DNA of 64,000 nt, taken from assembly GCF_002953935.1 (NCBI RefSeq), contig NZ_CP026514.1:3348001-3412000 (forward strand). The letters are read 5' to 3'. Under the pieces are notes generated by a model, which was not told where the DNA came from, made no database searches, and saw only the letters and a program-made list of their open reading frames with translations. Position numbers and translations under genes: made by a program. This document shows, one piece after another, positions 28,273 to 54,340 of the stretch (position 1 is the first letter of the stretch; each line of letters starts with the position of its first letter). The DNA comes from Arthrobacter sp. PGP41. GTDB taxonomy: Bacteria; Actinomycetota; Actinomycetes; Actinomycetales; Micrococcaceae.

Positions 28273-29727
28273 GTGGAGCTCAGCACCTATCTGCGAATCC
28301 TTCGCCGCAATTGGATTATGGTGGTGGCCTTCACGCTTCTTGGGCTGGTTGCCGCCACGGCCTATACGCTCAGTATCAAACCCACCTATACGGCCCAGAC
28401 AAAGCTTTTCCTGGCAACCCAAAGCTCCGGATCGGTGGGTGACCTGCAGCAGGGAAATACCTTTATCCAGGCGCGCGTCCAGTCCTACGTCGAAGCCGCC
28501 ATGACACCTGCGGTTTTGGAGCCTGCGGCTGAAAGCTTGGGAAAGCCAGTGGGTGAACTGGTGGGCAAAGTGACAGCCAGCGCCGGCCCGAACACCGTGA
28601 TCATTTCGATAGTGGCCACCGACAGTTCGGCGGTGCAGGCGGCGGCGATTGCCCAAGCGGTCGGTGAGAGCCTCATCGAAGTGATCGATGAACTCGAAAA
28701 ACCGACCAATGGCACAGGGTCCTCGCCTGTCCGGCTTTCGGTGGTCACCCCCGCGGCGCCGCCGGCTGAGCCGTCCGCCCCGAACAACCGGCTTAACATT
28801 GCCCTCGGGGGGGCCATCGGACTGGCCCTTGGCACGGGCCTGGCCCTCCTTCGGAACATGCTTGACACCAAGGTGCGCGGCGAGACTGACCTGCAAAGGG
28901 TCACCGATGCGCCCGTCCTGGGAGGAATCGCGTTCGACGCCGACGCCACCAAAAAGCCCCTTCTCACCCAGGCTCCGTCCCAGGGCACACGGGCAGAGTC
29001 GTTCCGCCAGATAAGGACCAACCTGCAGTTCGCCCACGTTAGCCACGGATCCAAGGCCGTCCTGGTGACGTCGTCGCTTCCTGGAGAAGGCAAAAGCACA
29101 ACCGCCATCAACCTTGCCATCGCCGTGGCGCAAGGCGGGCAGTCCGTAGCGTTGGTGGACGCCGACTTGAGGCGGTCCCGGGTGGGAGAGTACCTGGGAC
29201 TTGAAAAGAACGCGGGCCTGACCACCGCCCTCCTCGGAAAGGCCGATCTAAGCGAGCTTCTGCAGCACTGGGGCCAGGACGAACTTTATGTGCTGACGGC
29301 AGGGCAGACGCCGCACAACCCCAGCGAACTGCTGGGGACGGGAGCCATGAAGAACTTAATTCTTCGGCTTGAGCAGGATTTTGATGCGGTCATCATTGAT
29401 GCACCTCCCCTGCTGCCGGTCACCGACGCAGCAGTACTGGCACAGCACGTGGGCGGCGTCGTCCTGATGGTCGGGTCCTCCCGAGTGAAGCTCCCCGATC
29501 TCGAAAAGTCCCTGAATGCCTTGGACATGGTCGAGGCCGACGTGCTGGGCGTGGTGCTTAATTTCCTGCCTGTTAAAGGCCCGGACGCATACGCCTACAG
29601 CTACTACAGCTACGAAACCGACCAGCCCAAGGCAAAGAAGAGAAACAAAAAAACGGCGGATAGGAAAAATTCGCGTCCGCCTGCCCTTGATTCTGTTGAG
29701 CCGCCCCGTGACCATGCCGCCCGCTGA
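28273..29727 (+). CDS. Wzz-type chain-length regulator fused to a BY-type tyrosine kinase (copy A)
   Basis: A 484-residue protein controlling polysaccharide chain length and export. A Wnt/Wzz domain lies between two membrane segments (about residues 15-32 and 175-195). The cytoplasmic BY-kinase follows: Walker A in LPGEGKSTT (Lys274), Walker A' VALVDADLRR, Walker B VIIDAPPLLPVTDA. A C-terminal tyrosine cluster (YAYSYYSYE, near 435-443) is the likely autophosphorylation tail. The GTG start at 28273 has AGAAAGG upstream and aligns with the paralogue's MELKDYLRI; a frame 13 codons longer lacks a ribosome binding site. It begins the divergent arm: transferase, DUF4012 and LAXTG genes follow. The paralogue is at 50027-51517. 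Confidence 0.92.
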   Translation: MELSTYLRILRRNWIMVVAFTLLGLVAATAYTLSIKPTYTAQTKLFLATQSSGSVGDLQQGNTFIQARVQSYVEAAMTPAVLEPAAESLGKPVGELVGKVTASAGPNTVIISIVATDSSAVQAAAIAQAVGESLIEVIDELEKPTNGTGSSPVRLSVVTPAAPPAEPSAPNNRLNIALGGAIGLALGTGLALLRNMLDTKVRGETDLQRVTDAPVLGGIAFDADATKKPLLTQAPSQGTRAESFRQIRTNLQFAHVSHGSKAVLVTSSLPGEGKSTTAINLAIAVAQGGQSVALVDADLRRSRVGEYLGLEKNAGLTTALLGKADLSELLQHWGQDELYVLTAGQTPHNPSELLGTGAMKNLILRLEQDFDAVIIDAPPLLPVTDAAVLAQHVGGVVLMVGSSRVKLPDLEKSLNALDMVEADVLGVVLNFLPVKGPDAYAYSYYSYETDQPKAKKRNKKTADRKNSRPPALDSVEPPRDHAAR

Positions 29728-29767
29728 CCGCTAGGAACCGGTTCACCATTCCTGCCGAAAGGTGCTT

Positions 29768-31213
29768 ATGGCCATGCGTGAAGACCCTAATTGGCAGTCG
29801 CGTTATGCACGGCGCCTGGCCGTGACGGATGCCGCCGCGGTACTTTGGGCTACGCTGGGCGCTCTTGTCTTTCGGTTCGGCAGCCCGGACAGCGGCAGCA
29901 TCATCAGCAAAGAAGGAATGCCCTATATTTCAATTTCCCTCGTCCTGGCCTGCAGCTGGTGGCTCATGCTTTCTGCCTGGGGCACCAGGGATTCACGCAT
30001 TCTGGGACACGGGACCGAGGAATACAAAAGGGTAGTCAGTTCCTCGCTATGGCTGTTCGGAATAATCGCCATTGTCTCCTACACCTTCCAGTTCGACACA
30101 GCACGCGGTTATGTCGGCATCGCGCTCCCTGCCGGGCTGGGTATCCTGCTGCTGTCCCGGTTCCTGATCCGCCAGTTCCTGCAGCTTGATCGCCATGCCG
30201 GAAAGAGCATGTCCAGGGTGCTCATCATTGGTGGCCCCGGCAGCGCCGAGCACCTTGCCCGGTCCCTGTCCCTTCACCCCATGGCCGGTTATGTTCCTGC
30301 CGCCACGTACCTGCCGGGCAGTCCGGAGGGAACAACTGTTGCCGCGGATTTGAACCTTCCCACACTCGGCCATGCGACGGACCCGGAAAGCATTGCCAGC
30401 ACCATCAAGGAGTTCAAGCCCGACGCGGTGGCCCTGTCCGGCGGTGTCAACCTTCAGCCCCGGGCTATCCGTGCCCTGGGCTGGGCGCTGGCCGACATGG
30501 ATGTCCGCATGATCATGGCTCCTGCCTTGACGGATGTTGCAGGTCCGCGGATCCACACGCAGCCGGTTGCGGGCCTGCCGCTCATTCACGTTTCCACCCC
30601 TAACCTGGCGCCCGCCCAGCGGTTTGTGAAGCGCGCTTTCGATGTGGCGGGAGCAGGATCACTCATACTGGCCTTCTCCCCTTTGCTCCTGGCGCTTGCC
30701 CTCGTGATCCGCCTTGACAGTCCCGGGCCCGTACTTTTCCGGCAGGAGCGGGTGGGAACCCAGGGGACGAGGTTCCACATGCTCAAGTTCCGTTCCATGG
30801 TGGTGGACGCCGAGAAGCAGCTGCGCGAACTCCGGCTCATGAACCAAGGCAGCGGGGTATTGTTCAAGATCAAGGATGATCCGCGGGTCACCAGGGTGGG
30901 CCGGTTCATCCGCCGCTACAGCCTGGATGAACTTCCCCAGCTGTTCAACGTCCTCAGCGGCTCCATGAGCCTTGTGGGACCACGCCCCCCGCTGCCGTCG
31001 GAGGTTGAGCAGTACGAGAACCATGTGCACAGGCGCCTGCTGGTGCGGCCCGGACTTACCGGGCTGTGGCAGGTGAGCGGGCGCTCCCTGCTGTCATGGG
31101 AGGACACGGTGCGCCTGGACCTTTACTACGTGGAAAACTGGTCCGTGTCCGGCGATATCTCCATCCTGCTGCGAACCTTCCGCGCCGTGGTAAGCCGACA
31201 TGGCGCCTATTAG
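29768..31213 (+). CDS. Polyprenyl-phosphate sugar-1-phosphate transferase (WbaP/WcaJ type initiating enzyme)
   Basis: A 481-residue enzyme that starts each glycan unit by moving a sugar phosphate from a UDP-sugar to undecaprenyl phosphate. Four hydrophobic segments fill the first 150 residues. A Rossmann-like CoA_binding_3 segment (VLIIGGPGSAEHLA) follows. The catalytic domain starts KRAFDVAGAG near residue 275 and includes SPGPVLFRQERVG, KFRSMVVDAE (acidic catalytic region), RYSLDELPQLFNV, SLVGPRPP and RPGLTGLWQVSGR. The ATG at 29768 follows GAAAGG by five bases. It lies 40 bases after the BY-kinase gene. The usual sugar for this group is glucose or galactose, not decided here. Confidence 0.93.
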   Translation: MAMREDPNWQSRYARRLAVTDAAAVLWATLGALVFRFGSPDSGSIISKEGMPYISISLVLACSWWLMLSAWGTRDSRILGHGTEEYKRVVSSSLWLFGIIAIVSYTFQFDTARGYVGIALPAGLGILLLSRFLIRQFLQLDRHAGKSMSRVLIIGGPGSAEHLARSLSLHPMAGYVPAATYLPGSPEGTTVAADLNLPTLGHATDPESIASTIKEFKPDAVALSGGVNLQPRAIRALGWALADMDVRMIMAPALTDVAGPRIHTQPVAGLPLIHVSTPNLAPAQRFVKRAFDVAGAGSLILAFSPLLLALALVIRLDSPGPVLFRQERVGTQGTRFHMLKFRSMVVDAEKQLRELRLMNQGSGVLFKIKDDPRVTRVGRFIRRYSLDELPQLFNVLSGSMSLVGPRPPLPSEVEQYENHVHRRLLVRPGLTGLWQVSGRSLLSWEDTVRLDLYYVENWSVSGDISILLRTFRAVVSRHGAY

Positions 31214-31249
31214 CCGCGGCGCCCGCCCGCAACACGAAAGGGTTGCTGC

Positions 31250-33148
31250 GTGACAGGAATCGAAACCGCCGAGGCACAGCAGCACCCGGGCCAGCCCGTC
31301 AAGGTCCGGAAGAAAAGTCGGAGCCACGCCCGGCGAAGGCTCCGCAGACGGCTGGTCCGGCTGGCAGTCGCAATTGGCATCCTTGCTTTGACGGGCGGGG
31401 CCTGCGCGGCCTGGCTCGCCCACCGCGCGGACCAGGTCAAAACCCATCTTGAGGCGACCGCTGTCCTGCTTCCCGCCGTCGAACAAAAACTCCTGGCCGG
31501 TGACGTGGAAGGCGGAAAAGCCGTCCTCGAAGAACTGCAGGATCACTCAACAGCAGCCCGCGAAGCCGGAACCGACCCGCTCTGGAAGGCAGCGTCGTCG
31601 GTCCCCCAGCTTGGTGCCAATTTCTCAGCGGTGACCGCTGTTGCCCAGTCCGCGGACGACGTCGTCCAGGGAGCTGTTGCGCCTCTGGTCGGCACGTTCG
31701 GTTCGATCGCGTGGGAGGACCTGGCGCCGAAAGGTGGGAAGATCGACGCTGCAGCCCTTCGTGACGCCTCCCCCACACTCGGGACAGCCGCGAGGACAGT
31801 CCAGCTCTCCTACGAACGGCTGGCGGCCATCGACCAATCGGCACTCCTGCCCCAGATCGCCGGTCCCCTCGGCGAAGCAATAACGCCCCTTAATGAAGCC
31901 CGCGGCGCACTCAACGCCGCCGCTGCTACCGCCAAAGTCCTGCCGCCCATGCTGGGCATGGACGGGCCGCGGAATTACCTCATCCTCATTCAGAACAGTG
32001 CCGAGGTGCGGGCCACCGGCGGTATCCCCGGCGCCGTGGCCGTCATCAGTGCTGACAGGGGCACCATTAAGCTCGCCGGCCAGGCAAGCGCGGGCGACGT
32101 CGGTATCTTTGATCCGCCCCTGGACGTCCCTGAGGACCAGGAGCGGATCTTCACAACCCGGATGGGAACCCAGTTGCAGAACGTTAACCTGACCCCGGAT
32201 TTTCCCACCGCAGCGTCCACTGCAAGCAGCATGTGGGAAAAGAGAAACCCGGGCACCAAAATTGACGGAGTCATTGCCCTGGATCCCTTGGTGCTGGCAA
32301 ATGTACTGCGCGCCACGGGCCCTGTTGCCTTGAAGGACCCCGCGATGCTGGCGGTGGTGAAGCCCACAGGGCTTCCCGCCACTTTGACGGCAGACAACGC
32401 GGTGAAAACGCTCCTGTCCGATTCCTATGCCGCCTTGCCGGACCCCGGATTGCAGGACGACTACTTCGCCCGCATGGCCAGCGAGGTGTTCACCGCCGTT
32501 GCCGATGGTCAGGGCGACGGCAAGAGGCTGGTCGAGGAACTGGTCCGGAGCTCGGAACAGAACCGGCTGTACGTCTGGTCCGCGCGGCCTGACGAACAGC
32601 GGGCCATTAGCACAACCGCGGTGTCCGGCATGATTGCCGGGTCCGCGCAGGAACGGGCCTCCTTTGGCCTGTATTTCAACGACAGCACCGGCGCAAAGAT
32701 GGACTACTACGTGCGGCGGACGGCGCAGCTGGTACAGGCATGCACGCCCGACGGCGGATCGGCCGTTACGCTGCGCGTCACCTTAACGAACACTGCCCCC
32801 GCCGACGCCGCCGGGTCGCTGCCGAAATATGTCACCGGCCAGGGGGTCTTCGGGGTAGAGGCCGGGCGCGTACGGACCAACGTCATCGCGTATGGTCCTG
32901 GCAGATCCCTCCTGGAGAAAGCCAGGGCTGGCGGCGGCGCTGCGCAGCTGTCCTCGTTCCGCCAGGACCAGAGGCCGGTTGCTGTTCTTACGGCTGAAAT
33001 GGGGCCGGGCGAGACTGAGACCGTGGAGATCGATTTTTCCCGGGTAACCGCGCAAAGTGATCTTGATCTCAATGTCACGCCGACCATCCAGCCCCTGGAG
33101 GATGTGGTCCGGCCTCCGGTAAGGGCGGAATCATGCCCGGCCCATTAG
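31250..33148 (+). CDS. DUF4012 domain membrane protein (copy A)
   Basis: A 632-residue protein. A basic N-terminus (RRRLRRRLVRLA) precedes one membrane segment at about residues 36-59. The rest is a large extracellular region, DUF4012, with an opening helical part (KLLAGDVEGGKAVLEELQ), then the family core MDGPRNYLILIQNSAEVRATGGIPGAVAVI (about 242-271). Later blocks are TPDFPTAASTASSMWE, DGVIALDPLVLANVLRATGPV and SFGLYFNDSTGAKMDYYV. The function of DUF4012 is not established. The gene is in a tight run after the initiating transferase (36-base gap), and a small cell-wall protein follows. It likely acts outside the membrane in polysaccharide assembly or attachment (inference). GTG start after AAAGGG. 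Confidence 0.9.
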   Translation: MTGIETAEAQQHPGQPVKVRKKSRSHARRRLRRRLVRLAVAIGILALTGGACAAWLAHRADQVKTHLEATAVLLPAVEQKLLAGDVEGGKAVLEELQDHSTAAREAGTDPLWKAASSVPQLGANFSAVTAVAQSADDVVQGAVAPLVGTFGSIAWEDLAPKGGKIDAAALRDASPTLGTAARTVQLSYERLAAIDQSALLPQIAGPLGEAITPLNEARGALNAAAATAKVLPPMLGMDGPRNYLILIQNSAEVRATGGIPGAVAVISADRGTIKLAGQASAGDVGIFDPPLDVPEDQERIFTTRMGTQLQNVNLTPDFPTAASTASSMWEKRNPGTKIDGVIALDPLVLANVLRATGPVALKDPAMLAVVKPTGLPATLTADNAVKTLLSDSYAALPDPGLQDDYFARMASEVFTAVADGQGDGKRLVEELVRSSEQNRLYVWSARPDEQRAISTTAVSGMIAGSAQERASFGLYFNDSTGAKMDYYVRRTAQLVQACTPDGGSAVTLRVTLTNTAPADAAGSLPKYVTGQGVFGVEAGRVRTNVIAYGPGRSLLEKARAGGGAAQLSSFRQDQRPVAVLTAEMGPGETETVEIDFSRVTAQSDLDLNVTPTIQPLEDVVRPPVRAESCPAH

Positions 33149-33272
33149 CGGTCCTGCTTCCCGGTGAATCCTTTGGGTAGCCTGCCGGAAAACTGGGTTG
33201 TTCCTGCGGTTTCCCTCGGACTGCCCTGTTAAGATTGGTACTAATCCCAACGGCGCTTCACGGTTATCTGCG

Positions 33273-33285
33273 CGTGAAAATCACG
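33273..33285. promoter_or_regulatory. Short palindrome upstream of the LAXTG gene
   Basis: CGTGA-AAA-TCACG is a perfect 5+5 inverted repeat with a three-base centre. It lies 47 bases before the start of the LAXTG gene in the 183-base gap after the DUF4012 gene. It has the size of a regulator half-site pair, not of a terminator. It could also be a 5' leader hairpin. Confidence 0.3.
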
Positions 33286-33331
33286 TGGGGGCCTGCTAAT
33301 TCAATGCTCACATGATTTTGGGGAATCAGAC

Positions 33332-33934
33332 ATGAAGAAGACCGTTTCCGCCCTGGCCCTCGCCGGCTCACTCGCATTCCTTGGCGCAGGAGGGGCACAG
33401 GCAAACCATGACACGGACTACCCGTCCGCGCCGGTAACGGGAACCGTCAGCGACGGTACTGTAGCTCCCGGCGAATCCTTCATCTTCAGCGGAACCGGCT
33501 TCAACCCAGGCGAACCCATCGCAATGGAAGTTTCCCGTGAAGATGCGGAGCCTTCCGCCGCCGGAGCTGCCGGGACGGCGGGCGGCCCTTCCGCCGCTTC
33601 CCCTGCAGGCATGATCGTGCCCCTGGAAAAGATTGCCAGCGCGACCACCACGGCGGACGCCGCCGGGAACTTCTCCCACCCCTTCGACCTGAATGAGAAC
33701 GGCCTTTACACCCTGGAAGCCACCGGCCTCCAGTCCGGCCACGTAGTCACTGCACAGGTTGTTGTTCACGCGGTTACCAATGAAGTAGCTCTTGCCAAGA
33801 CCGGCGGTGTCCCCTTGGCCAACACCGGGCTAAGCTCCGGCATGCTGATCTGGGGAGCAGCCGGCCTGGGTGCCCTTGTTTTCGGTGCGGGCAGTGTGGT
33901 TGCGGCGAAGCGCCGTGCGGCGGTGGCTGCTTGA
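33332..33934 (+). CDS. Small secreted LAXTG-anchored surface protein with doubled sorting motif (copy A)
   Basis: A 200-residue surface protein. It has a signal peptide (MKKTVSALALAGSLAFLGAG, cleavage probably after AQA near residue 24). An extracellular beta-sandwich-like part follows, with ATVAPGE-type motif (DGTVAPGESFIFSGTGF). A cell-wall sorting region ends it: two pentapeptides in tandem (LAKTG at 154-158 and LANTG at 162-166), a hydrophobic helix (LIWGAAGLGALVFGAG) and a basic tail (KRRAA). LAXTG is the signal cut by class E sortases in high-GC actinobacteria. It follows the DUF4012 gene, and a paralogue with three motifs sits in the same place in locus B. Its molecular role is unknown. 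Confidence 0.9.
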   Translation: MKKTVSALALAGSLAFLGAGGAQANHDTDYPSAPVTGTVSDGTVAPGESFIFSGTGFNPGEPIAMEVSREDAEPSAAGAAGTAGGPSAASPAGMIVPLEKIASATTTADAAGNFSHPFDLNENGLYTLEATGLQSGHVVTAQVVVHAVTNEVALAKTGGVPLANTGLSSGMLIWGAAGLGALVFGAGSVVAAKRRAAVAA

Positions 33935-34242
33935 CACGTGCCCAGTGCACGTAGATGGCGCACTTTTCTAAGGGTGAAAACATCCCCTAGATCGAATGGC
34001 CACGCGGACCACCGAAACGGGTCCGGAATTCTTGCCACTAGGCTTGCCGGCGTCCTAAACGGATAGTCGATGATCTTCCGTCTGGCCAGTGGATGCGCCA
34101 AATGCAAAGCGCCTGGCCCATCCTGTTTCAGACGCCCACATTTCAACCTAGGTAACACCAGCCCCATCACCGTACTCGCAGTACGTTAATTCGAGTAGTC
34201 CCCACGGTGGATTGCCCAACCTAGCGTAAATACCGTCAGAGC
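33935..34242. other. Intergenic region between locus A and the tailspike-like gene
   Basis: This 308-base stretch has no convincing gene. A weak hairpin (ACGTGC, five-base loop, GCACGT; 33936-33952) overlaps the end of the LAXTG gene region without a T run. CGTACT-CGC-AGTACG at 34171-34185 is a perfect 6+6 palindrome, about 58 bases before the next start. TAAATA at 34227-34232 could be a -10 box only ten bases from the ATG, suggesting a very short or absent leader for that gene. Confidence 0.35.
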
Positions 34243-36300
34243 ATGACGAGTAACGCTGAATACCCGAAGCGACCGGTGCCCGGAGGCGATGCCGTCGTCA
34301 AGCGTCGAGGCCTTCTCCGTATCGGAACACTGCTGACCGCCTTTACGGGGACCTCCGCAATGCATGTCGCGGCAGGCGACACCGCCCAAGCAGGATCCGG
34401 CGACAAAGCGCCTACCAACTCGTACGTCCCCCTAGCGGAAAAGGGTTCCCCACTAGGTGTCGCTACGTTGGACGGAAACGCGAAGATCGTATCCGCTCAG
34501 CTTCCCGACCTCTCGGCCATATATGCGAAGCGAGAAGCTGTACAACTTAGGGACTTTTTGGACCCTACAAGAATGGAGGGAACCACCAACGACGCTCCGG
34601 CACTTTCCGCGGCGTTGGCGGCACTGCCGCCGGACGGTGGACGGCTCGTCTGGGCGGGCACCGATCTGCGCATCAGCACAGCCGTTGACTTCAACAAGCC
34701 GGTTACTGTAGTGGGCACCCACAGGGAACGGTCCAAGCTAACCGTAACGGGCTCGAAGCTTGTTTCTATATCCGCATCCAGCGTCATGTTCACCGACATT
34801 GGATTTTATGGATCCGGACTGGCGGACGGCTCTGTTCTGTTCAACAGCGAGAAAACCGTCACAAAAAGCCACCGGAACTGGAGGTTCGAGAACTGCCTTT
34901 TCCAGTCATGTGGAATCGTCCGATTCAGCAAAATTGGCTGTGTGCAGACGGACGGTACCGTTCTTGTCAAAGGCACCGATATCAGTGGAGACCTGGCACT
35001 CATAGGCTGCGAAGTAACAGGCATCCGCAGCGCCTACGGCATCGAGATAAACGGGGTTGACGGGGTGATCGTTGAGGGGTGCCACATCCATAGCAACGGC
35101 ATCGATGCTACGAACGGCGAGGGCCTAAAAATCCTCGGCAGTTCTTCAAATGTACGGGTTGCACTAAATCAAATCGACAACAATACTCGTGACGGACTCG
35201 ACATGTACGATTGCGCGGTCGCCACGGTCATTGGGAACGACATTCACAATAATGGTGTCTACGGAATCGAAGCCAAATGGGCGGTCAGTACTGTCCATAC
35301 GGTCGATAAATTCATCGTGTCCAATAATAGGATCTACGCCAATGCAACAGGCGGCTTGAATGTCGATGTTCCATTATCCGTCGTTTCAGGAAACCAGGTT
35401 TACGGCAATAAAGGAACGGGCCTGCGGATTGGTGCGGCCTTCGACGACGCTAGCGCCGCGACTAAGTATTCAATCATCAACGCTAATGTCGTCTCCGCAA
35501 ACACCGGCAACGGCATCCTGATCAGCAACGCCGGTGACAGCATCACTGTGACAAGTAATCAAGTTCATTCAAATGGGGCGTCCGGTATTGCATTCGGAGC
35601 CGCCACGGTGGGCGCAATCATCAGCCAGAACCAATGCTTCGGCAACGCTGGCCGCGGAATCAGCATCGGCGGGACGGGGCACATCATTGGTTCCAACCGC
35701 AGTCAGGACGTCGGCAACTTTTACCTCGTTTCCGGTTCCACCGCGCACACGTTTATGCAGGCTGCCGGATCGGCCCAGACGGGGCTTTTCGCTTCGGGTT
35801 ACTATTACGGGCCTGGTGGGGGTAGGTCAACCACAACCATGACGGCAGGTCTCCTGACGTTCGTGCCATTTTGGGTCGGCATGGCAACCAACTTCTCCAT
35901 GATCGGCGCAGAAGTAACTACAGCCGGTGCGGCAGGAACTGCGCTAAGGCTGGGCATATATAGGGACTCCGGCAAGGGTCTGCCCGATGCGTTAATCCTT
36001 GATGCCGGCAAAGTAGACGCCGCTACAACGGGCCCCAAAGAATTGAGTATCGCGCAAGCTCTCAGCCCCGGCTTGTACTGGCTGGCTGCCCTTGCCGAAA
36101 TTGGAGCGCCCGTTGTTCGCACGGTAAGCGCGGTGGGCCTGACTCCTGTTGGTGCGGGCTCCTTGGCTACGGCGACCGGCGCGTCAAGCCAGTCCGGTCA
36201 TTACCGAAGCGGGGTGGCTCCTGGTGCGTTGCCGGTGCCGGCAGGGACCTTCAACGGAACTACAGCGGGGCCCGCCCTCGTGGTGCTGAAGGCCAGCTAG
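34243..36300 (+). CDS. Tat-exported right-handed beta-helix protein with phage-tailspike-like modules
   Basis: A 685-residue protein. The N-terminus is Tat-like: KRRGLLRIG, a hydrophobic stretch and an Ala-rich site (GDTAQA) near residue 50. Next comes a tail-fibre-like linker, EKGSPLGVATLDGNAKIVSAQLPD (about 66-89). Residues about 105-500 form a pectate-lyase-3-type beta-helix, with short repeats such as NNTRDGLDMYD, NDIHNNGVYGIEA and NANVVSANTGNGILISN. The C-terminal part (about 520-685: GPGGGRSTTTMTAG, VGMATNFSMIGAEVTTAGAAG, LRLGIYRDSGKGLPDA) resembles domains I know from actinophage tail proteins. It may bind or trim the exported glycan. Catalytic residues cannot be assigned. It stands alone, facing the convergent wzx gene. 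Confidence 0.75.
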   Translation: MTSNAEYPKRPVPGGDAVVKRRGLLRIGTLLTAFTGTSAMHVAAGDTAQAGSGDKAPTNSYVPLAEKGSPLGVATLDGNAKIVSAQLPDLSAIYAKREAVQLRDFLDPTRMEGTTNDAPALSAALAALPPDGGRLVWAGTDLRISTAVDFNKPVTVVGTHRERSKLTVTGSKLVSISASSVMFTDIGFYGSGLADGSVLFNSEKTVTKSHRNWRFENCLFQSCGIVRFSKIGCVQTDGTVLVKGTDISGDLALIGCEVTGIRSAYGIEINGVDGVIVEGCHIHSNGIDATNGEGLKILGSSSNVRVALNQIDNNTRDGLDMYDCAVATVIGNDIHNNGVYGIEAKWAVSTVHTVDKFIVSNNRIYANATGGLNVDVPLSVVSGNQVYGNKGTGLRIGAAFDDASAATKYSIINANVVSANTGNGILISNAGDSITVTSNQVHSNGASGIAFGAATVGAIISQNQCFGNAGRGISIGGTGHIIGSNRSQDVGNFYLVSGSTAHTFMQAAGSAQTGLFASGYYYGPGGGRSTTTMTAGLLTFVPFWVGMATNFSMIGAEVTTAGAAGTALRLGIYRDSGKGLPDALILDAGKVDAATTGPKELSIAQALSPGLYWLAALAEIGAPVVRTVSAVGLTPVGAGSLATATGASSQSGHYRSGVAPGALPVPAGTFNGTTAGPALVVLKAS

Positions 36301-36376
36301 CCCTCACACGCATAGGTACTCGCAATCATGGAGACGGACATTGGTGCCGATCGCAGCGTTTCATCCTTTACTGGTG

Positions 36377-36391
36377 CCTGAAAATTTCAGG
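36377..36391. repeat. Perfect 15-base palindrome between convergent genes
   Basis: CCTGAAA-A-TTTCAGG is a 7+7 inverted repeat with a single central base. It lies in the 120-base gap between the ends of the tailspike-like gene (plus) and the flippase gene (minus). The loop is too small and there is no following T run, so it is not a standard terminator. A protein binding site or chance are the alternatives. Confidence 0.35.
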
Positions 36392-36420
36392 CCGTTGGCC
36401 CGGCAACCCGTAGGAGGAAA

Positions 36421-37710: not shown

Positions 37711-37903
37711 TGCCAAAGGCCTCCGTCGAAATGGGATGCGGTACCGGGCCAAACAATAAATTGAGTCGCGTGTGCAAGCCGAAGCGCGCTCATCAACATA
37801 GCAGAGTGAATTCTTGTACAGCCACCGGAGCCTCCTCGCTCACGCTAATCCCATCGACCCGACCTTACCTGTCAGCGATTGCCAGCTCCGCTTGGCGGCT
37901 GGA

Positions 37904-38581: not shown

Positions 38582-38703
38582 ACTTTCCTCACGTTTCTTT
38601 TCAAGACGTTCGACTGCCTAGGAATTGAAGTTTTCGGTTACTTGATGGCCAGTCGCCGACATAGTCAGTTGGTTCATCTCTCCACAACGCTGATGGCATC
38701 GCA

Positions 38704-43426: not shown

Positions 43427-43463
43427 TAGGTATCCAATCCTGTCTGCAAGGAAAATGGCAACA

Positions 43464-44729: not shown

Positions 44730-44782
44730 AGCTATTCCATTCTATGGGCTCAACGACAAACAAATCCTTCAACACCGCCGCA

Positions 44783-46645: not shown

Positions 46646-46716
46646 TTGGTACCTTTGCATGGGTAGAAGCAGCTGCATGGATACCCGTGGAATGGAAAGT
46701 GTTCACGCAGCGGTGA

Positions 46717-47853
46717 TCAATTCATACGAGCGGTCAGAAAACGCTCGATCGCTTGGACTACTCTTGACATTTCTTGCTCTTTCATGGCGCTCCCGCTTGG
46801 AAGGGTCAAGCCACTTTCGAAAAGCCGATCCGAGCTCCCATTGACGCGCCTTCGGTGCTGCTGAAACACAGGCTGTAGATGCATGGGCTTCCAAAGGGGC
46901 CTGGTCTCCACATTGACATCCCCCAGTGCTTCGCTCAGCTGTTTGGCGGACCAGCCAGCTTCAGACTCGTTGACAACTACAGATGTCAACCAGCAATTGT
47001 CTTCTGCGTCGTTAGCTCCGCCAAATATTTCAACACCCGGCACGGCGGCAAATAACTCGCGATAGTGCTCACGAATTTGGCGGCGCCTCTCGATCATGTC
47101 GTCGAGCCTGGACAACTGCGCGCGTCCGAGGGCCGCCAGCAGGTTGCTTAGCCGGTAGTTGAAGCCAATCTCTGTGTGTTCATAATGAAGAGTAGGCTGG
47201 CGTGCCTGTGTGGCCAGATACCGGACTTTAGACGCAACCGCCTCGTCGTCCGTCATGAGCATCCCGCCTCCGGACGTCGTCATGACCTTGTTCCCGTTGA
47301 ACGAGAATACGGCGTCGTCTCCCCATGATCCTGTGGGACGCCCCATATATGAGGCACCTAGAGATTCTGCCGCGTCGGCTATCACTGGAATCCCCGCCTC
47401 GCCTGCCAGAACTTGGATAGTGCGGTAGTCAACTGCTTTGCCTAAGAGATCAACCGGCATTATCGCGGCAACCCGTGCACCGGTTTGCTCAAGTTCCTGG
47501 AGAGATTCCGACAAGAGCGCTGGATCCATGTTGCCTGTTTCTGGAAGGCAGTCTATGAAGTACGGCTCAGCCCCTGAGTAGACAATCGCATTAGCTGTCG
47601 CCGCGAAGGTCATCGTCGAAGTGAGGACCAGGTCGCCAGGTCCAACGCCGCGCGCCAACAGGGCAAGGTGAAGGGCAGCGGTTCCAGAACTCAAAGCAAC
47701 GGCGTGCTTGCGGCCGATCCGCTCAGCCATATCAGTTTCAAAGCCGTCTACGTCAGGGCCGAGCGGTGCTATCCAGCCGGAGCGAAGCGCCTCCAGAATA
47801 TATCTTTCCTCCAGTGCCCCGACATCAGGAGAAGACATATAGATTCTATGCAT
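46717..47853 (-). CDS. DegT/DnrJ/EryC1 aminotransferase (PglE-like)
   Basis: A 378-residue PLP-dependent sugar aminotransferase. It shows YMSSPDVGALEERYILEAL, SSGTAALHLALLA, TSTMTFAATANAI, ADAAESLGAS (Asp binding the pyridine N), the Schiff-base Lys in FSFNGNKVMTTSGGGML, and later NYRLSNLLAALGRAQL. It transfers an amino group to a keto-sugar nucleotide. The 4-keto product of the PglF-like enzyme just upstream is the natural substrate, giving a 4-amino-4,6-dideoxy sugar. A perosamine-synthase-like role using the Gmd product is an alternative. ATG 47853 lies next to a GTG at 47859 that overlaps the previous stop; GGGGTG is five bases before the ATG. Confidence 0.9.
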   Translation of the reverse strand: MHRIYMSSPDVGALEERYILEALRSGWIAPLGPDVDGFETDMAERIGRKHAVALSSGTAALHLALLARGVGPGDLVLTSTMTFAATANAIVYSGAEPYFIDCLPETGNMDPALLSESLQELEQTGARVAAIMPVDLLGKAVDYRTIQVLAGEAGIPVIADAAESLGASYMGRPTGSWGDDAVFSFNGNKVMTTSGGGMLMTDDEAVASKVRYLATQARQPTLHYEHTEIGFNYRLSNLLAALGRAQLSRLDDMIERRRQIREHYRELFAAVPGVEIFGGANDAEDNCWLTSVVVNESEAGWSAKQLSEALGDVNVETRPLWKPMHLQPVFQQHRRRVNGSSDRLFESGLTLPSGSAMKEQEMSRVVQAIERFLTARMN

Positions 47854-47855
47854 TT

Positions 47856-49721
47856 TCACACCCCGAACGACGACGCTAGATAGGGTTTATGCGTCGGAGA
47901 CGTGCGGGCGTTCGATTTTGCCCATGATTCATAGTCCAGCTCTTCCGGTGCTATTGGCGGAACCGACGTGTGCGTAATCTGAGGGTGAAATGGGCGCTCG
48001 TCTTGTTCCGACGCGTCGATCAGGTCCTCATGCAGCTTTTCCCCCTCGCGAAGTCCGGTAAAAACGATCTCGATCGGCTTACCGGACTTCGAGATCATGC
48101 GCTTGGCAACATCGAGAATCTTTACTGGTTTTCCCATGTCAAGAATGAGGACCTCCCCAGCCCTGCCTATAGCTCCTGCTTGTATGACGAGCTGGCAAGC
48201 CTCGGGTATCGTCATGAAATATCTTGTTACTTCCGGGTCAGTGACGGTCACTGGGCCGCCCGATTCAATTTGCTCGATGAATGTTGGCAACATTGAACCG
48301 CGACTTCCAAGAACATTTCCAAAGCGAACGGAAAGGTAATTTCTGTCCGTGGCTGCGGCTGCCCAGGCGGTGAGCATTTCAGCTGTACGTTTTGAGTAGC
48401 CCAGAACGCTGGTTGGATTCGCAGCCTTGTCGGTGGAGATATTGATGAATGTCTTCACACCAGCCTTCCGAGAGGCCTCGAGAACATTCAGCGTGCCAAG
48501 CACATTGGTCTTCCAAGCTTCATCTGGATACTGTTCCAGCATGGGGAGATGTTTCAGGGCAGCAGCATGAAACACGACCTCGGGCCGGGCGCGTTCAAAC
48601 GCGATGTGCAATGCATCCTGATCGCGGATGTCTGCCAAAACCACGTCATCGCTGTCCAGCAGGCCATGACCGGCAATCGACATTTGCACGCCGTGCAGTC
48701 CGGACTCGTCACGGTCCAGCATGACCAACTCCATCGGCGAGAATCTAGAAAGCTGCCGACACAGCTCCGAACCAATGGACCCCCCGGCACCGGTCACGAG
48801 CACTCTCTTATTGGTGACGTAGCCGGCTATGGCTTCCACAGCCGTGTCGACCGGGTGTCGTCCAATAAGGTCTTCAATTGCGACCTCACGGAGATCCGCG
48901 AGCTTCATCTTGTTGTCCAGAATTTCCGACAAGGGGGGCAGGACGCGAAGACGGATCGACGCACTGTCCGCAAAGTCAGAAACTCGTCTCATAAACTCGG
49001 CATCGGCCCGTGCAACGCAGAGCACTACGTCGCTCGCGCCAGTCATACTTGCAACCGATGCTAGATCCTCACCCCTCCCCATGACTTGGATATTCGACAG
49101 CCGAAGGTGCCGCTTCAGCGGATCATCATCGATCAAACCCACGGGGATGTAGCGGGATTTAGGATCACTCCGCATTTGTCTCACCAAGTAGGCTCCGGTC
49201 TGACCGGCACCGTAGATAAGCACTCGCCGTGAGGAATCGGTTGGTTTAATACGCCGTTCTATGAGTGCCCGCCGAACGTATCGGCTTCCTCCCATCAGAA
49301 TGAAGGCGATCGGCATCGCCAAAAGTGCGGCGCTTCGGGGAACGTCACCCGGCTTCATGACAAGGACACTGATCAGGAATAGCACGGCTGCTACCGAAAG
49401 AACCGTCGAAAGCAGCGTCTGTGCTTCATGGAACGCCCCGGATTGATGACGGCCCCGATATAACGCGAACATCCATCCCATGCCGGCCTGCAGGAAGACG
49501 GCAACGAGGGCGAGCGAACCCACGGCATACCAGGCAACGTTTCCAGCAACAAAATCAAATCTGAACAACACAGCTAGCGTCAGTGCAACGACCCAACACT
49601 CTGCGTCGACAGCATATTGGACCACGCGCGAAGCCAGCAGAGCAGCCCGATCGCCAGAGCCTTGTGTTGGCGCACTTGCACCGTCCATCCGCTCAGCTGC
49701 ACCCACTGTTCCATCCCCCAT
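47856..49721 (-). CDS. Membrane nucleotide-sugar 4,6-dehydratase (PglF/WbpM/CapD type)
   Basis: A 621-residue enzyme with four membrane helices in the first 160 residues and a CoA_binding_3-like segment (VLIYGAGQTGAYLVRQM). The C-terminal SDR domain shows VLVTGAGGSIGSELCRQL, FHAAALKHLPMLE and the atypical active site STDKAANPTSVLGYSK. It also has RFGNVLGSRGSMLPTF and TRYFMTIPEA. This family removes water from UDP-GlcNAc, making the 4-keto-6-deoxy sugar that the next gene's aminotransferase would use. The start at ATG 49721 has AGGA five bases upstream; open frames reach 49811 but lack homology. It heads the minus-strand arm of locus B, so the promoter should lie in the gap to 50027. Confidence 0.9.
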   Translation of the reverse strand: MGDGTVGAAERMDGASAPTQGSGDRAALLASRVVQYAVDAECWVVALTLAVLFRFDFVAGNVAWYAVGSLALVAVFLQAGMGWMFALYRGRHQSGAFHEAQTLLSTVLSVAAVLFLISVLVMKPGDVPRSAALLAMPIAFILMGGSRYVRRALIERRIKPTDSSRRVLIYGAGQTGAYLVRQMRSDPKSRYIPVGLIDDDPLKRHLRLSNIQVMGRGEDLASVASMTGASDVVLCVARADAEFMRRVSDFADSASIRLRVLPPLSEILDNKMKLADLREVAIEDLIGRHPVDTAVEAIAGYVTNKRVLVTGAGGSIGSELCRQLSRFSPMELVMLDRDESGLHGVQMSIAGHGLLDSDDVVLADIRDQDALHIAFERARPEVVFHAAALKHLPMLEQYPDEAWKTNVLGTLNVLEASRKAGVKTFINISTDKAANPTSVLGYSKRTAEMLTAWAAAATDRNYLSVRFGNVLGSRGSMLPTFIEQIESGGPVTVTDPEVTRYFMTIPEACQLVIQAGAIGRAGEVLILDMGKPVKILDVAKRMISKSGKPIEIVFTGLREGEKLHEDLIDASEQDERPFHPQITHTSVPPIAPEELDYESWAKSNARTSPTHKPYLASSFGV

Positions 49722-50026
49722 CGTTGTCCTACAAGATGAGTCAACCAGAAATGACCGCATCGCACTGACATTAAACCATCCAGTTTCAAACCTTTGGACT
49801 GCGTGTGTCATAAGCCGGAGGAGCGCTCGCGGGGACGGGCGTCCGGCACGTTTCCCTCGCTCTGTCGACGCCCGGTATTAACCCGACGGCCGAGCGCCGC
49901 GTGGATGGCCTCTCCCCGTCCCTCAAGACGCCGGCATGAGCCAGCAGTTACGCGAGCAGTAGCTGGCCTCTTCGACAGGTAGGATGTTGCAACGTACAGC
50001 CAAAAGCAATTTCGGAAGGGGCTCTT
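49722..50026. other. Divergent intergenic region of locus B
   Basis: This 305-base stretch separates the PglF-like and BY-kinase starts. No gene is convincing. TAGGAT at 49980-49985 is a good actinobacterial -10 box for the plus strand, about 42 bases ahead of the GTG start, with GGAAGGGG as the ribosome binding site at 50014-50021. No clear -35 box is seen. The minus-strand promoter was not located. Confidence 0.4.
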
Positions 50027-51517
50027 GTGGAGCTTAAAGACTACTTGCGCATTTTCCGCCGAAACTGGATTTTGGTTACCGCGTCCCTGCTTCTTGGCCT
50101 ACTGGGTGCGGGGGCCGCAACGTTGCTGGTCAAGCCTAATTACGTTGCAGAGACTACGCTATTCGCAGCCCTGCAAAATACGGGTTCGGTTACCGAGCTA
50201 CAACAGGGAAACGTGTTTACACAGGCACGCGTTCAGTCGTATGTCAAGACTGTAACGACTCCAACGGTCCTGCAACCCGTTATTGACAATTTAGGTTTGG
50301 ACATAACTCCGCGCGCTCTCGGTTCGAGAATTACGGCTACCTCGGATATGAATACTGTTCTAATCAACATATCCGTTGCCGATGAATCACCCGTCATGGC
50401 GGCCGCTATCGCACAAGCCGTCGGCAATAGCCTGGTGGAAGCTGTCGAGGAACTGGAAAGGCCATCGTCCGGCTCCCCGTCCCCAGTACGACTCTCGATC
50501 GTCGCCCCAGCGGTGGCCCCGACATCACCTTCATCGCCAAACGTCCGACTCAATCTAGCCTTGGGTGTCCTGCTCGGGCTCGGTGCTGGACTCGTATTTG
50601 CAATACTCCGCTCAGTACTCGACACCCGCCTTCGCGGCGAAGTCGATTTTCGAAGGATTAGCGATGCTCCAATTCTCGGGGGCATCAACTTTGACACTGA
50701 CGCAGCCAAGAAACCGCTGCTGACGCAGACAGGTGCTCAAAGCCCCCGCGCGGAGTCCTTTCGTCAGCTGCGTACGAACCTGCAGTTCGCCCATGTAAGC
50801 CACGAATCGAAGGCAGTGCTCGTCACTTCGTCCCTTCCTGGTGAAGGAAAAAGCACAACCGCGATCAACCTCGCAATTGCTTTGGCTGAATCCGGGCAGA
50901 CAGTGGCGCTCGTCGACGCCGACCTCAGAAGACCAATGGTTGCCGAGTACTTGGGGCTGCCCCGTGGTGCCGGACTCACTACAGCTCTGATCGGCAAGGC
51001 AGAACTCAATGATCTGCTGATGCCATGGGGCGAGAATGCACTCTACATACTGGCAGCGGGCCAAGCTCCCCCAAATCCGAGTGAGCTGCTAGGATCCGAC
51101 AAGATGAGGGAACTCATCTCAAGCCTGGAGGCCACCTTCGACGCGGTCATCATAGATGCACCGCCGCTACTCCCAGTTACCGATGCCGCGGTGCTCGCTC
51201 AGCAAGTTGGCGGCGTTGTACTAGTCGTAGGCGTCCAGAAGGTACGAACCACCGACGTCGAGAAGTCGCTGGGAGCTTTACGAATGGTCAAGGCGGATTT
51301 GCTTGGGGCCATCCTTAACAAACTTCCGGCCAAAGGACCGGACGCTTATACGTACAGCCAGTACTCATACGAGAGCACCACGCCTGTTTCAACCCTTAGG
51401 GCTAAAACCAACGAAACAAATTCCGGCAGTGGTCCTGACCGTCCGGCTCGTAGTGGCGAAACCCGCGAAGCGCGCAGGCTAAGTAATGCGGTCAACAGGG
51501 AGCGCAGTGAACTCTAA
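50027..51517 (+). CDS. Wzz-type chain-length regulator fused to a BY-type tyrosine kinase (copy B)
   Basis: A 496-residue paralogue of the protein at 28273-29727, colinear over its full length. It opens MELKDYLRIFRRNW, has membrane segments near residues 15-35 and 180-200, and the kinase has Walker A LPGEGKSTT (Lys275), Walker A' VALVDADLRR and Walker B VIIDAPPLLPVTDA. The tyrosine tail is YTYSQYSYE, with fewer tyrosines than copy A. Shared protein blocks are near-identical while synonymous sites differ widely, so the duplication is not recent. GTG start after GGAAGGGG. It is followed by DUF4012 and LAXTG genes in the same order as in locus A, without an initiating transferase between. Confidence 0.92.
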   Translation: MELKDYLRIFRRNWILVTASLLLGLLGAGAATLLVKPNYVAETTLFAALQNTGSVTELQQGNVFTQARVQSYVKTVTTPTVLQPVIDNLGLDITPRALGSRITATSDMNTVLINISVADESPVMAAAIAQAVGNSLVEAVEELERPSSGSPSPVRLSIVAPAVAPTSPSSPNVRLNLALGVLLGLGAGLVFAILRSVLDTRLRGEVDFRRISDAPILGGINFDTDAAKKPLLTQTGAQSPRAESFRQLRTNLQFAHVSHESKAVLVTSSLPGEGKSTTAINLAIALAESGQTVALVDADLRRPMVAEYLGLPRGAGLTTALIGKAELNDLLMPWGENALYILAAGQAPPNPSELLGSDKMRELISSLEATFDAVIIDAPPLLPVTDAAVLAQQVGGVVLVVGVQKVRTTDVEKSLGALRMVKADLLGAILNKLPAKGPDAYTYSQYSYESTTPVSTLRAKTNETNSGSGPDRPARSGETREARRLSNAVNRERSEL

Positions 51518-53312
51518 ACCCGGCGACTTCGGTAAAAGACGCGGGAAAACCGTTTTTTTAGTATCGATCATAATTCTAATTGGCGGACTTCTAAGTGGAT
51601 GGCTTGCATTTCGTGCCTTGCAGATAGAAGCAGAAATGTCAGCTGCGCGGCCTCTCCTCTCTCAATTCGAGGATGAGCTTACAAAAGGGGATCTTCCCGC
51701 CGCCTCTTCAACTCTCGCAAAGCTTCGTGGCCACGGGGCCGCTTCGCAGTCCGCAGCTACCGATCCCATCTGGACAGCTGCCCGCGCGCTGCCCCTCATC
51801 GGAACGAACTTCTCCGCCGTCACCGAACTGGCTTTGTCTTCTGTCGAGTTGGCAGATGGGGCAGCGACACCGGTGCTCAAGACGCTCGAAGACATCAGTA
51901 TCGAAAAACTCATGTCCGGAAACGGCGGCATCGATCTTGCCGCCATTTCTGGCGCCAGTCCTGCCCTATCTTCGGCGGCGGACACCGTCTCCTTGACGCA
52001 TGGGCGCTTGTCAGACATCGAAACTTCCGCCCTTGTTCCGCAGATCGCCGCTCCCCTAGACCAGGCGATCGAGGCGCTCGCACCTGTGAAAGACAAGCTG
52101 ACAGATGCAGCGAACGCTTCAAAGATACTTCCGAGCTTATTAGGCGCAGAGGGCGCCAGAAACTACTTAGTCCTCGTACAGAACAACGCCGAGATTCGTG
52201 CCACCGGCGGCCTTGCAGGAGCACTCGCTGTTCTTCGTGCCCACGATGGAAGAATTGAATTAGTTACGCAGTCCAGCGGATCTGCCCTCGGAATGTTTTC
52301 CCCCGCGATCTCCGTGGACCCGAATCAGACGACCATTTACAGCAACCGGTTGGGAAAGTTCATCGGCGATGTGAACCTAACACCAGACTTTCCGACTGTT
52401 GCTGCGTCGGCCAAAGCCATGTGGGAAAGCCGGCATAGTGAACGCATTGAGGGCGTTATTGCAATAGATCCTGTTGTTTTAGCTCATCTGCTGGACGCAT
52501 CAGGGCCGCTGGAAGTTGCAAAAGATCCGGCAACTACGTCTGGGTTGCCTGCAACACTGACGGCAGGCAACGTGGTGAAAACGCTTCTATCCGATGTCTA
52601 TACACACCTTGAGGGCGACAGCTCACAAGACGCATACTTCGCCGACGTCTCGCGGAAAATCTTCGAATCAGTTTCCTCGGGGAGTATTCCTGGCCCCAAG
52701 CTGCTCGACGCACTCTCTAAAAGCGTAAGCGAGGGACGCGTTCTCGTTTGGAGTGCCCACAAACCGGAACAAGAGATTTTGACTCAGAATCCGTTGGGAG
52801 GATCGATTTCCGGACCAGCCGCCAGCGGCGCCGCATTTGGGGTGTATTTCAACGACGGGACGGGTGCGAAGATGGATTTCTACGTCAGGCGTTCTGTGCA
52901 GCTGGCAAAGTTCTGCGAAAATGACGGATACTCGCTTTACAAAGTAAGGGTAAAGCAAACCAACACGGCGCCGCCAAATGCTGCTACGTCACTGCCGGAT
53001 ACCGTGACGGGCGCTGGCCTTCACGGCGTCCCCGCAGGTTTTGTCCAAACAAATGTTGTCATTTACGGTCCCGCTTTTTCTCAGGTGGATATAACTAGAA
53101 AGGACGGTACCCAAGTCCCATTCGCATCCCACCTCCATGAGAACCGTCCGGTCGGTACCATGGCCACCAGGCTGGCGCCCGGCCAGTCTACTGAACTGGA
53201 AATGACGTTCATCACAGTCGTTCAGGACTCTCCGCCAAACATACGTGTCACGCCCACGGTGCAGCCTGTCCATGACGTCTGGCGGGTACCGGAATATGTT
53301 GGATGTGGATAG
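51507..53312 (+). CDS. DUF4012 domain membrane protein (copy B)
   Basis: A protein of about 601 residues, paralogous to the one at 31250-33148. One membrane segment lies near residues 18-38 (VFLVSIIILIGGLLSGWLAF). The extracellular DUF4012 core shows GARNYLVLVQNNAEIRATGGLAGALAVL, TPDFPTVAASAKAMWE, EGVIAIDPVVLAHLLDASGPL and AFGVYFNDGTGAKMDFYVRRS. The start was set at GTG 51507, after AGGGAG; an ATG at 51486 would extend it seven codons. It overlaps the BY-kinase gene by 11 bases, so the two are co-translated. The gene order is that of locus A, which argues that DUF4012 works with the kinase and the LAXTG protein. Confidence 0.9.
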   Translation: MNSKPGDFGKRRGKTVFLVSIIILIGGLLSGWLAFRALQIEAEMSAARPLLSQFEDELTKGDLPAASSTLAKLRGHGAASQSAATDPIWTAARALPLIGTNFSAVTELALSSVELADGAATPVLKTLEDISIEKLMSGNGGIDLAAISGASPALSSAADTVSLTHGRLSDIETSALVPQIAAPLDQAIEALAPVKDKLTDAANASKILPSLLGAEGARNYLVLVQNNAEIRATGGLAGALAVLRAHDGRIELVTQSSGSALGMFSPAISVDPNQTTIYSNRLGKFIGDVNLTPDFPTVAASAKAMWESRHSERIEGVIAIDPVVLAHLLDASGPLEVAKDPATTSGLPATLTAGNVVKTLLSDVYTHLEGDSSQDAYFADVSRKIFESVSSGSIPGPKLLDALSKSVSEGRVLVWSAHKPEQEILTQNPLGGSISGPAASGAAFGVYFNDGTGAKMDFYVRRSVQLAKFCENDGYSLYKVRVKQTNTAPPNAATSLPDTVTGAGLHGVPAGFVQTNVVIYGPAFSQVDITRKDGTQVPFASHLHENRPVGTMATRLAPGQSTELEMTFITVVQDSPPNIRVTPTVQPVHDVWRVPEYVGCG

Positions 53313-53483
53313 CAGTCAAATCCTGTCATGACGCTCAACAAACTGGACGTGGACATTGCTCCCGACGTCCTCCGGATGGTACGTTTTCCAAGGGTTCTAA
53401 ACTCGAAGTTTCTGCAATTGTCTCTTGCAGGAAGGTCGTCTCAATTCGAGTACATGTAAACAAACGTCTCCGGGGGGACATCA

Positions 53484-54065
53484 ATGAAGAAAATATTCGC
53501 AGCACTCGCGCTGGCCGGTTCAATCGCACTCGTGGGCACAGCGCCGGCAATTGCCGCCAACTATCCGCCCTTGCCGCCGGCGGCCACCGTATCCGACGCC
53601 ACTGTTGCGCCGGGTGAAACCTTTATTTTCACGGCTCAGGGTTTCCTTCCCGGCGAATCCGTGACCGTCACCATCACGCTCACAACAACCGGCGCCGCAA
53701 ACACTGGCGGCACCGCGGTCTCTGCAAGGATCCCGATCTTCCAGGCACCGATAACTGTCAACGCTACCGCTGATGCTCAGGGAAAGATTTCGGTTCCGCT
53801 CGCGTTGAACGAACCAGGTACCTACTCCATCACGGCGACGGGCAACACCTCCCGTGTAACTGCCGGTCCGGTCTTCGTTACGGTTGTGGCTTCGTTGGCT
53901 AACACCGGCGGTGCTCCCCTCGCCAACACCGGCGGAGCTCCCCTGGCGAACACGGGTGCTGACGCCAGCCTGCTCCTTTGGGGTGCAGCAGGCGTGGGCG
54001 CACTGGGCCTCGGTGCAGCAGGCGTCATCATCGTCCGCCGCAACAAGAACCAGGCTGCCGCCTAG
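53484..54065 (+). CDS. Small secreted LAXTG-anchored surface protein with tripled sorting motif (copy B)
   Basis: A 193-residue paralogue of the protein at 33332-33934. It has a signal peptide (MKKIFAALALAGSIALVGTA, cut after AIA near residue 24). The extracellular domain has ATVSDATVAPGETFIFTAQGF, followed by a Thr-rich part. The sorting region holds LANTGGAP twice and a third LANTG (residues 138-158), then LLLWGAAGVGALGLGAAG and the basic tail RRNKNQ. Only the last pentapeptide is at the usual distance from the helix. GGGGGGAC lies seven bases before the ATG. A strong terminator follows. Processing by a class E sortase is expected; no sortase gene is in this window. Confidence 0.9.
   Translation: MKKIFAALALAGSIALVGTAPAIAANYPPLPPAATVSDATVAPGETFIFTAQGFLPGESVTVTITLTTTGAANTGGTAVSARIPIFQAPITVNATADAQGKISVPLALNEPGTYSITATGNTSRVTAGPVFVTVVASLANTGGAPLANTGGAPLANTGADASLLLWGAAGVGALGLGAAGVIIVRRNKNQAAA
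53895..53957 (+). repeat. 24-base tandem repeat encoding LANTGGAP
   Basis: Two full 24-base copies (53895-53918 and 53919-53942) and a 15-base partial copy (53943-53957) encode LANTGGAP, LANTGGAP, LANTG. The copies differ at several synonymous positions (for example GGT/GGA, TTG/CTC/CTG). The repeats are therefore maintained as protein and are not a fresh slippage product. The copy A gene has LAKTGGVP then LANTG at 33791-33829. Confidence 0.85.
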
Positions 54066-54333: not shown

Positions 54334-54340
54334 GTACGTC

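Follow-up and report, generated by a model that had tools for sequence, protein, structure and literature searches.

The stretch of DNA analysed here, referred to below as the window, comprises 64,000 nucleotides from Arthrobacter sp. PGP41 (contig NZ_CP026514.1, positions 3,348,001 to 3,412,000). It holds two colinear modules, A (28234-33934) and B (50027-54065), with every gene on the + strand. Each encodes a fusion of Wzz and bacterial tyrosine kinase (BY-kinase), a membrane protein of the DUF4012 family and a small secreted protein with LAXTG motifs. The last two genes form the conserved unit that is our subject, and the DUF4012 protein, in which a domain resembling the LytR-CpsA-Psr (LCP) enzymes is predicted, may join polysaccharide to its small neighbour. 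The features of the two modules are as follows, Tyr denoting tyrosine.

28234-29727, + strand: copy A Wzz/BY-kinase fusion (Pfam Wzz and AAA_31 over cut-off, GNVR below; TIGR01007 166 bits, cut-off 108)
29762-31213, + strand: copy A initiating polyprenyl glycosylphosphotransferase, Bac_transf (PF02397; TIGR03025 429 bits, cut-off 295.6)
31250-33148, + strand: copy A DUF4012 membrane protein, P0003 (PF13196 152 bits)
31958-32617, + strand: predicted LCP-like domain of copy A DUF4012, residues 237-456
33332-33934, + strand: copy A small secreted LAXTG protein, proposed glycan acceptor
33419-33421, + strand: codon of the invariant N-terminal Tyr, copy A (Tyr30)
33815-33829, + strand: copy A LANTG sorting motif beside the hydrophobic segment
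50027-51517, + strand: copy B Wzz/BY-kinase fusion (Pfam; TIGR01007 170 bits, cut-off 108)
51486-53312, + strand: copy B DUF4012 membrane protein, P0006 (PF13196 143 bits)
52146-52790, + strand: predicted LCP-like domain of copy B DUF4012, residues 221-435
53484-54065, + strand: copy B small secreted LAXTG protein, LANTG occurring three times, proposed glycan acceptor (TIGR01167 LPXTG_anchor 19.8 bits, cut-off 15.9, E 0.0009)
53562-53564, + strand: codon of the invariant N-terminal Tyr, copy B (Tyr27)
53943-53957, + strand: last LANTG sorting motif of copy B

The kinases belong with the BY-kinases by their Wzz domain, autokinase domain and C-terminal Tyr cluster, which in copy A reads YAYSYYSYE. 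An alternative GTG at 28273 matches the start of the copy B kinase and, judged by that homology, is the likelier start of copy A. Both DUF4012 assignments lie far above the curated PF13196 cut-off of 28 bits, and in copy B the kinase and DUF4012 genes overlap by 32 bases. A first-pass annotation of the window had described two colinear, same-strand paralogous modules, each divergent from glycan genes, and this arrangement is confirmed: the minus-strand genes faced are a glycosyltransferase family 2 (GT2) gene at 27059-28000 for module A and a dehydratase gene at 47856-49811 for module B. It had also placed an initiating transferase between kinase and DUF4012 in A and in the opposite arm for B, again correctly, the initiating enzyme domain of copy B being fused to a GT4 glycosyltransferase at 44783-46678 on the - strand.

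Between A and B the proteins are 63% (kinase, 297/471), 44% (DUF4012, 263/592) and 43% (small protein, 86/200) identical. At four-fold degenerate sites the differences amount to 75%, 73% and 68%, respectively, which is near saturation; the modules are therefore neither an assembly duplicate, as the first-pass annotation had held, nor a recent duplication. Two matches to PF13196 were found in the genome, a single contig of 4.27 Mb. The closest homologue of copy A among the matches listed, from Pseudarthrobacter sp. C1, is 94% identical.

The conservation of the module was assessed in loci of up to 19 kb from all 21 relatives in the family with DUF4012, three of them shortened by contig ends so that a few neighbours may have been missed. 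In all 21, a gene for a small secreted protein with an LAxTG signal lies directly downstream of DUF4012 on the same strand, compared with 4 of 195 other large genes of these loci that have such a neighbour. Within the 5 kb upstream, a same-strand kinase gene is found in 8/21, always with the initiating transferase between, and the transferase is so placed in 12/21. The conserved unit is one of two genes, DUF4012 and a small secreted protein that usually bears a sorting signal. The functional unit of three genes put forward in the first-pass annotation survives for this pair and not for the kinase, and the conserved three-gene order it expected across actinobacterial glycan loci is not seen, given the kinase count and the scarcity of the pair outside the class (below). 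As observations apart, the leader between DUF4012 and the small gene is 183 bases long in A (33149-33331) and 171 in B (53313-53483), the gap is 68-272 bases in 20/21 relatives, the copy B leader terminates in the G-rich, ribosome-binding-like stretch GGGGGGAC, and Rfam gave zero matches in these leaders.

Presence and absence agree with this pairing. DUF4012 occurs in 22 of 120 family genomes, our own included, and a strong homologue of the small protein (E<=1e-6) in 20 of the 22 against 1 of the 98 without DUF4012; the sole exception is a small gene at a contig edge of an 82% complete genome. At E<=1e-3 the figures are 20/22 and 6/98. The two DUF4012 genomes lacking a homologue still carry an LAATG gene downstream. 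More broadly, DUF4012 is present in 138/296 genomes at class level and 49/149 at phylum level, from which we sampled 80 loci of the class-level matches listed and 20 of those outside the class, using home-made detectors of signal peptides and sorting signals. A sorting-signal gene, downstream or upstream, adjoins DUF4012 in 15/40 and 20/40 loci of two class samples (the second being 19/40 under slightly different overlap rules) and 8/216 and 11/209 other genes, or 35/80 against 19/425 when pooled. Outside the class it adjoins 3/21 DUF4012 genes and 4/95 others. The link between DUF4012 and a sorted protein thus holds strictly within the family, is common across the class and is weak outside it. 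Co-occurrence stands above chance in family (21/21 against 4/195) and class alike, as the first-pass annotation had supposed.

It had also anticipated correlated phylogenies. The DUF4012 and small-protein trees, which are without support values, largely agree (23 pairs; Mantel r 0.78, with 0 of 2000 permutations as high), in a comparison that still includes species relatedness. In both, copy A clusters with loci L029, L034, L038 and L040; the second large clade contains copy B and the same-genus loci L026, L035 and L036, although the exact position of copy B inside it is not the same in the two trees. A and B are therefore two old, separate lineages in which DUF4012 and acceptor genes have travelled together, one pair per glycan locus. 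Third-position guanine-plus-cytosine content, 0.72 in A and 0.58 in B for the kinase and 0.75 and 0.57 for DUF4012, is in line with separate histories.

Both DUF4012 proteins were modelled: the AlphaFold model of copy A has a predicted local distance difference test (pLDDT) value of 84.4 and a predicted template modelling (pTM) score of 0.78, and the predicted model of copy B 88.1 and 0.84. Copy A comprises one transmembrane-like segment, a helical region, the LCP-like domain and a C-terminal beta-rich part. The single N-terminal membrane anchor starts from about residue 34 in A and 19 in B, and what follows probably lies on the extracytoplasmic side. The alpha-beta-alpha fold of LCP enzymes is present in the predicted structure, with which the suggested role of attaching surface glycan fits. 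Among 63 DUF4012 sequences E252, Y393 and K483 are conserved in 63, D345 in 62 and R254 in 60, and arginine (Arg) reaches at least 40% only at positions 241, 254, 304, 332, 395, 439 and 490. At L285 3875-6769, in another class, DUF4012 is fused to a MraY/WecA-type transferase domain (PF00953), the one such case among five long frames scanned, and a second genome of that genus has a DUF4012 frame of equal length; the N-terminal extensions of two other long frames, L290 and L140, look like over-extension of the frame. The L285 fusion points to undecaprenyl-linked substrates. Separately, Cys498 and Cys629 are each conserved in 60/63, and the beta-rich part (A 466-632, B 448-608) weakly resembles chains of oligosaccharyltransferase and glycosylphosphatidylinositol (GPI)-transamidase complexes and M1 aminopeptidases.

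The copy A small protein consists of a signal peptide, an immunoglobulin (Ig)-like region, LAKTG and LANTG motifs, a hydrophobic segment and an Arg tail, and has zero Pfam or NCBIfam matches. The Ig-like appearance of the small proteins was judged by eye, Pfam hits being weak and under cut-off. Both copies carry the features of a class E sortase substrate, namely a C-terminal LAXTG, a hydrophobic stretch and a basic tail. The genome has two sortase-family genes, one of which, L047, is class E (NF033747 class_E_sortase 260 bits, cut-off 160), the second being class F-like but under its cut-off. Sorting-like motifs are repeated, LANTG three times in copy B (53895-53957) and LAKTG plus LANTG in copy A (33791-33829); repeats also occur in the same-genus L026, L035 and L036, and of the repeated motifs only the final one lies next to the hydrophobic segment.

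Across 31 aligned proteins, 23 from the family and 8 chosen at class level, the invariant residues of the mature part are a Tyr just past the signal peptide, G100, G112 (numbered as in copy B) and the sorting-motif Gly; an Ig-core-like Tyr is conserved in 29. In the copy B search a Tyr lies at most 13 residues from the called cleavage site in all 120 homologues among the matches listed (homologue lists give the best 120 of 900 and the best 120 of 855 matches). The automatic family count is 18/21, the misses (L032, L042 and L043) having cleavage sites called just past the Tyr. At class level a Tyr occurs within the first 20 mature residues of 12/15 adjacent sorted proteins in the first sample and 16/20 in the second. 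These figures followed a hand-picked set of 18 first-sample neighbours (Tyr within 15 residues in 14/18); the span was later set at 20 and then at 25 for Y[PTVGA], and the strict Tyr-Pro (YP) criterion was chosen after the second sample had been seen, so 16/20 is the sole fair replication.

Y[PTVGA] occurs within 25 residues in 27 of the 35 adjacent class-level proteins, where 2000 shuffles within each protein gave 8.0 on average and never more than 18; of the 12 BLAST clusters of such proteins, 11 have one or more members with it. Among unlinked sorted proteins it is found in 2/18, with some Tyr in the first 20 residues of 6/18; this control is small, with mis-parsed entries, and leaves out six matches to the small-protein family, including L271 with the motif, which if counted make it 3/24. 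For strict YP, secreted proteins adjoining DUF4012 compare with those elsewhere in the same loci as 12/38 to 13/339 in the family and as 7/57 to 9/378 and 11/51 to 2/372 in the two class samples. Outside the class the difference, 2/22 adjacent to 2/139 elsewhere, is not significant (p 0.09). Neighbours that show no detectable homology thus share the Tyr, as would be expected of a short acceptor or recognition site.

Our preferred reading, to which we give roughly an even chance (about 0.5), is that DUF4012 acts as an LCP-like ligase: lipid-linked polysaccharide would be joined to the small protein, and a sortase would then anchor that protein to the wall. Gene pairing, predicted fold, residue conservation and motif enrichment are its observed basis; what we infer are the donor, the catalysis, the residue that accepts the chain and the order in which the steps occur. 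The two genes would act at the end of a surface polysaccharide pathway of the Wzy type, in which the operon would make the lipid-linked polysaccharide and the BY-kinase/Wzz protein set its chain length, either that protein or the initiating transferase possibly being encoded elsewhere. DUF4012, as a single-pass membrane protein with its predicted LCP-like domain probably outside the cytoplasm, would receive polysaccharide linked to undecaprenyl diphosphate and pass it to the small protein emerging from the Sec translocon. Judged by conservation, the invariant Tyr that follows the signal peptide, or its immediate surroundings, would be the most likely acceptor site. The class E sortase, to judge from the motif and the presence of its gene, would then link the LAXTG end to peptidoglycan, so that the small protein would tether the glycan to the wall. 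More tentatively, and on balance less likely than not, DUF4012 proteins may make up an LCP-fold class of oligosaccharyltransferase in their own right, attaching entire Wzy-made polysaccharides to a Tyr of secreted proteins, at their new N-terminus. In the family, sortase would then fix these secreted proteins to peptidoglycan, so that one end would carry glycan and the other be bound to the wall; Tyr-Pro proteins without a sorting signal would give a released glycoprotein.

This places the two-gene unit near a known kind, an LCP ligase with a sorted acceptor. In Actinomyces oris, LcpA is described as an LCP enzyme mediating glycosylation of the sortase-anchored GspA (sections of PMC6381275), and the likeness lies in a proposed ligase paired with a sortase-anchored acceptor, the glycan being put on before anchoring, as proposed for the A. 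oris pair; adjacency to a sortase-substrate gene is found for DUF4012 at the family and class frequencies given above. DUF4012 differs from LcpA in having no PF03816 match and no conserved counterparts of the Args on which LcpA depends (R149, R266). It also has helical and beta-rich parts in addition to the LCP-like domain, its genes belong to glycan loci of the Wzy type, and the N-terminal Tyr motif is found in its partners. With the LCP transferases TagT, Cps2A and Staphylococcus aureus LcpA it shares predicted fold, likely membrane topology and association with glycopolymer genes, but it has no detectable sequence family match, its catalytic Arg set is not conserved and the proposed acceptor is a protein. 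In the exopolysaccharide locus of Bifidobacterium longum 105-A a DUF4012 gene between welE and wzz is listed as an auxiliary protein (PMC5412050), similarly beside initiating transferase and chain-length genes, although the passage on DUF4012 there shows neither a sorted protein nor a test of function. The family is also discussed, in parts of the respective papers, among protein families of Candidate Phyla Radiation and Gram-positive bacteria (PMC6744442) and as a hub gene in a biofilm transcriptome (PMC7917626). Bacterial surface proteins of the S-layer are known to carry glycans O-linked to Tyr, their transfer step remaining to be defined (text from PMC2943079); the linkage proposed here is alike, but the acceptors are S-layer proteins and 'LytR' appears nowhere in that text. 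In the portions of the open-licence literature that mention DUF4012 no tested function is given, and in such literature on LCP proteins and protein glycosylation, sorted proteins and capsules, Tyr linkage and polysaccharide attachment, as far as listings with the openings of abstracts show, only the A. oris work and its reviews pair such a protein with a sorted acceptor.

Several results weigh against the proposed ligase. PF03816 is absent from the Pfam hits of P0003 and P0006 (listed to E 1), neither matches an NCBIfam model, where L050, a genuine LCP protein from this genome, matches TIGR00350, the DUF4012 profile matched not one LCP chain among PDB sequences, and hhalign gave DUF4012 a probability of at most 2.7% against LCP, albeit in a plausible register. 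In the structural comparison the lowest LCP matches tie in Z with the first unrelated ones (8.4, 8.8), which cover other parts of the model. Conserved equivalents of the catalytic LCP Args (A. oris R149 and R266; Cps2A R267, R362 and R374) were not found, in a register taken from a weak profile alignment, and because residues 255-438, the expected span of both essential Args, hold no Arg above 43% in the 63 sequences, DUF4012 may lack canonical LCP chemistry. A search of the genome itself with the curated anchor model found none at E<=0.001, and the copy A small protein matches no anchor model. An adjacent sorting-signal gene is absent in 45/80 class loci and for 18/21 DUF4012 genes outside the class, and in 6 of 62 loci lacking one a neighbour starting with YP has no recognised sorting signal, though one ends in a sorting-like motif. 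Conservation of the Tyr could be structural. Related sequences are moreover not independent, so that the Fisher and Mantel figures overstate significance.

Absent sorted neighbours and the predicted fold would sit well with a different division of labour, in which DUF4012 is an LCP-like enzyme fixing polysaccharide directly to peptidoglycan, the usual acceptor of known LCP enzymes (as summarised in part of PMC7831098), and the small protein is a separate wall-bound partner such as a glycan-binding organiser of the coat, as its Ig-like look might suggest. We regard this as rather unlikely, since it leaves unpredicted both the strict pairing in the family and an invariant Tyr in the otherwise variable N-terminal tail of neighbours without detectable homology. 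The missing canonical Args, the large helical and beta-rich parts flanking the LCP-like domain and the three ordinary LCP genes of this genome could instead mean that DUF4012 is a non-catalytic LCP-fold scaffold or chaperone, which binds either the nascent small protein or the lipid-linked glycan and passes one of them to another enzyme, the reaction itself being carried out by an unlinked transferase. The near-invariance of E252, R254, D345, Y393 and K483 is a pattern typical of an active site and, with the fusion to a MraY/WecA-type domain, makes this a long shot.

That the pairing is mere operon convenience, the small protein being one of several sorted surface proteins made with the coat and chemically unconnected with DUF4012, seems very improbable. 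The weakening of linkage with distance, to 3/21 outside the class, would favour it, as would a second sorted-protein gene 0.8 kb away in family locus L029 and 1.9 kb away in L044. Those second genes, however, also start Tyr-Pro, and the near-perfect match of presence and absence, the agreement of the trees and the occupation of one slot by different types of sorted protein with the same N-terminal motif all speak against it.

Two blocks of minus-strand genes diverge from the modules.

10902-28000, - strand: glycosyltransferase, Wzy_C-like, NeuB and cytidylyltransferase genes, divergent from module A
36421-49811, - strand: glycan operon divergent from module B

The second of these comprises genes for a flippase-like protein, a NeuD/PglB-type acetyltransferase, Wzy, glycosyltransferases, an epimerase, a UDP-sugar dehydrogenase, the GT4-initiating transferase fusion, an aminotransferase and a 4,6-dehydratase-like protein. 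Left of module A, a frame at 20447-22690 joins NeuB and SAF domains to a xylose-isomerase-like triosephosphate isomerase (TIM) barrel and adjoins the cytidylyltransferase gene; the two likely belong to a nonulosonate pathway. An ATP-binding cassette (ABC) transporter at 13111-14952 scores under the family cut-offs as both MsbA- and PglK-like. Directly after module A lies a right-handed beta-helix protein (34243-36300; Pfam Beta_helix), perhaps an enzyme acting on polysaccharide, and directly after module B a VanZ-like protein (54263-54799; Pfam VanZ, with the NCBIfam vanZ models far under cut-off).

To our knowledge, how capsules and exopolysaccharides are attached to the cell is unsettled in many actinobacteria. 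Were DUF4012 to act as proposed, this widespread family would become one of glycan ligases with a short, testable acceptor motif, and would be of interest to makers of protein-polysaccharide conjugates.

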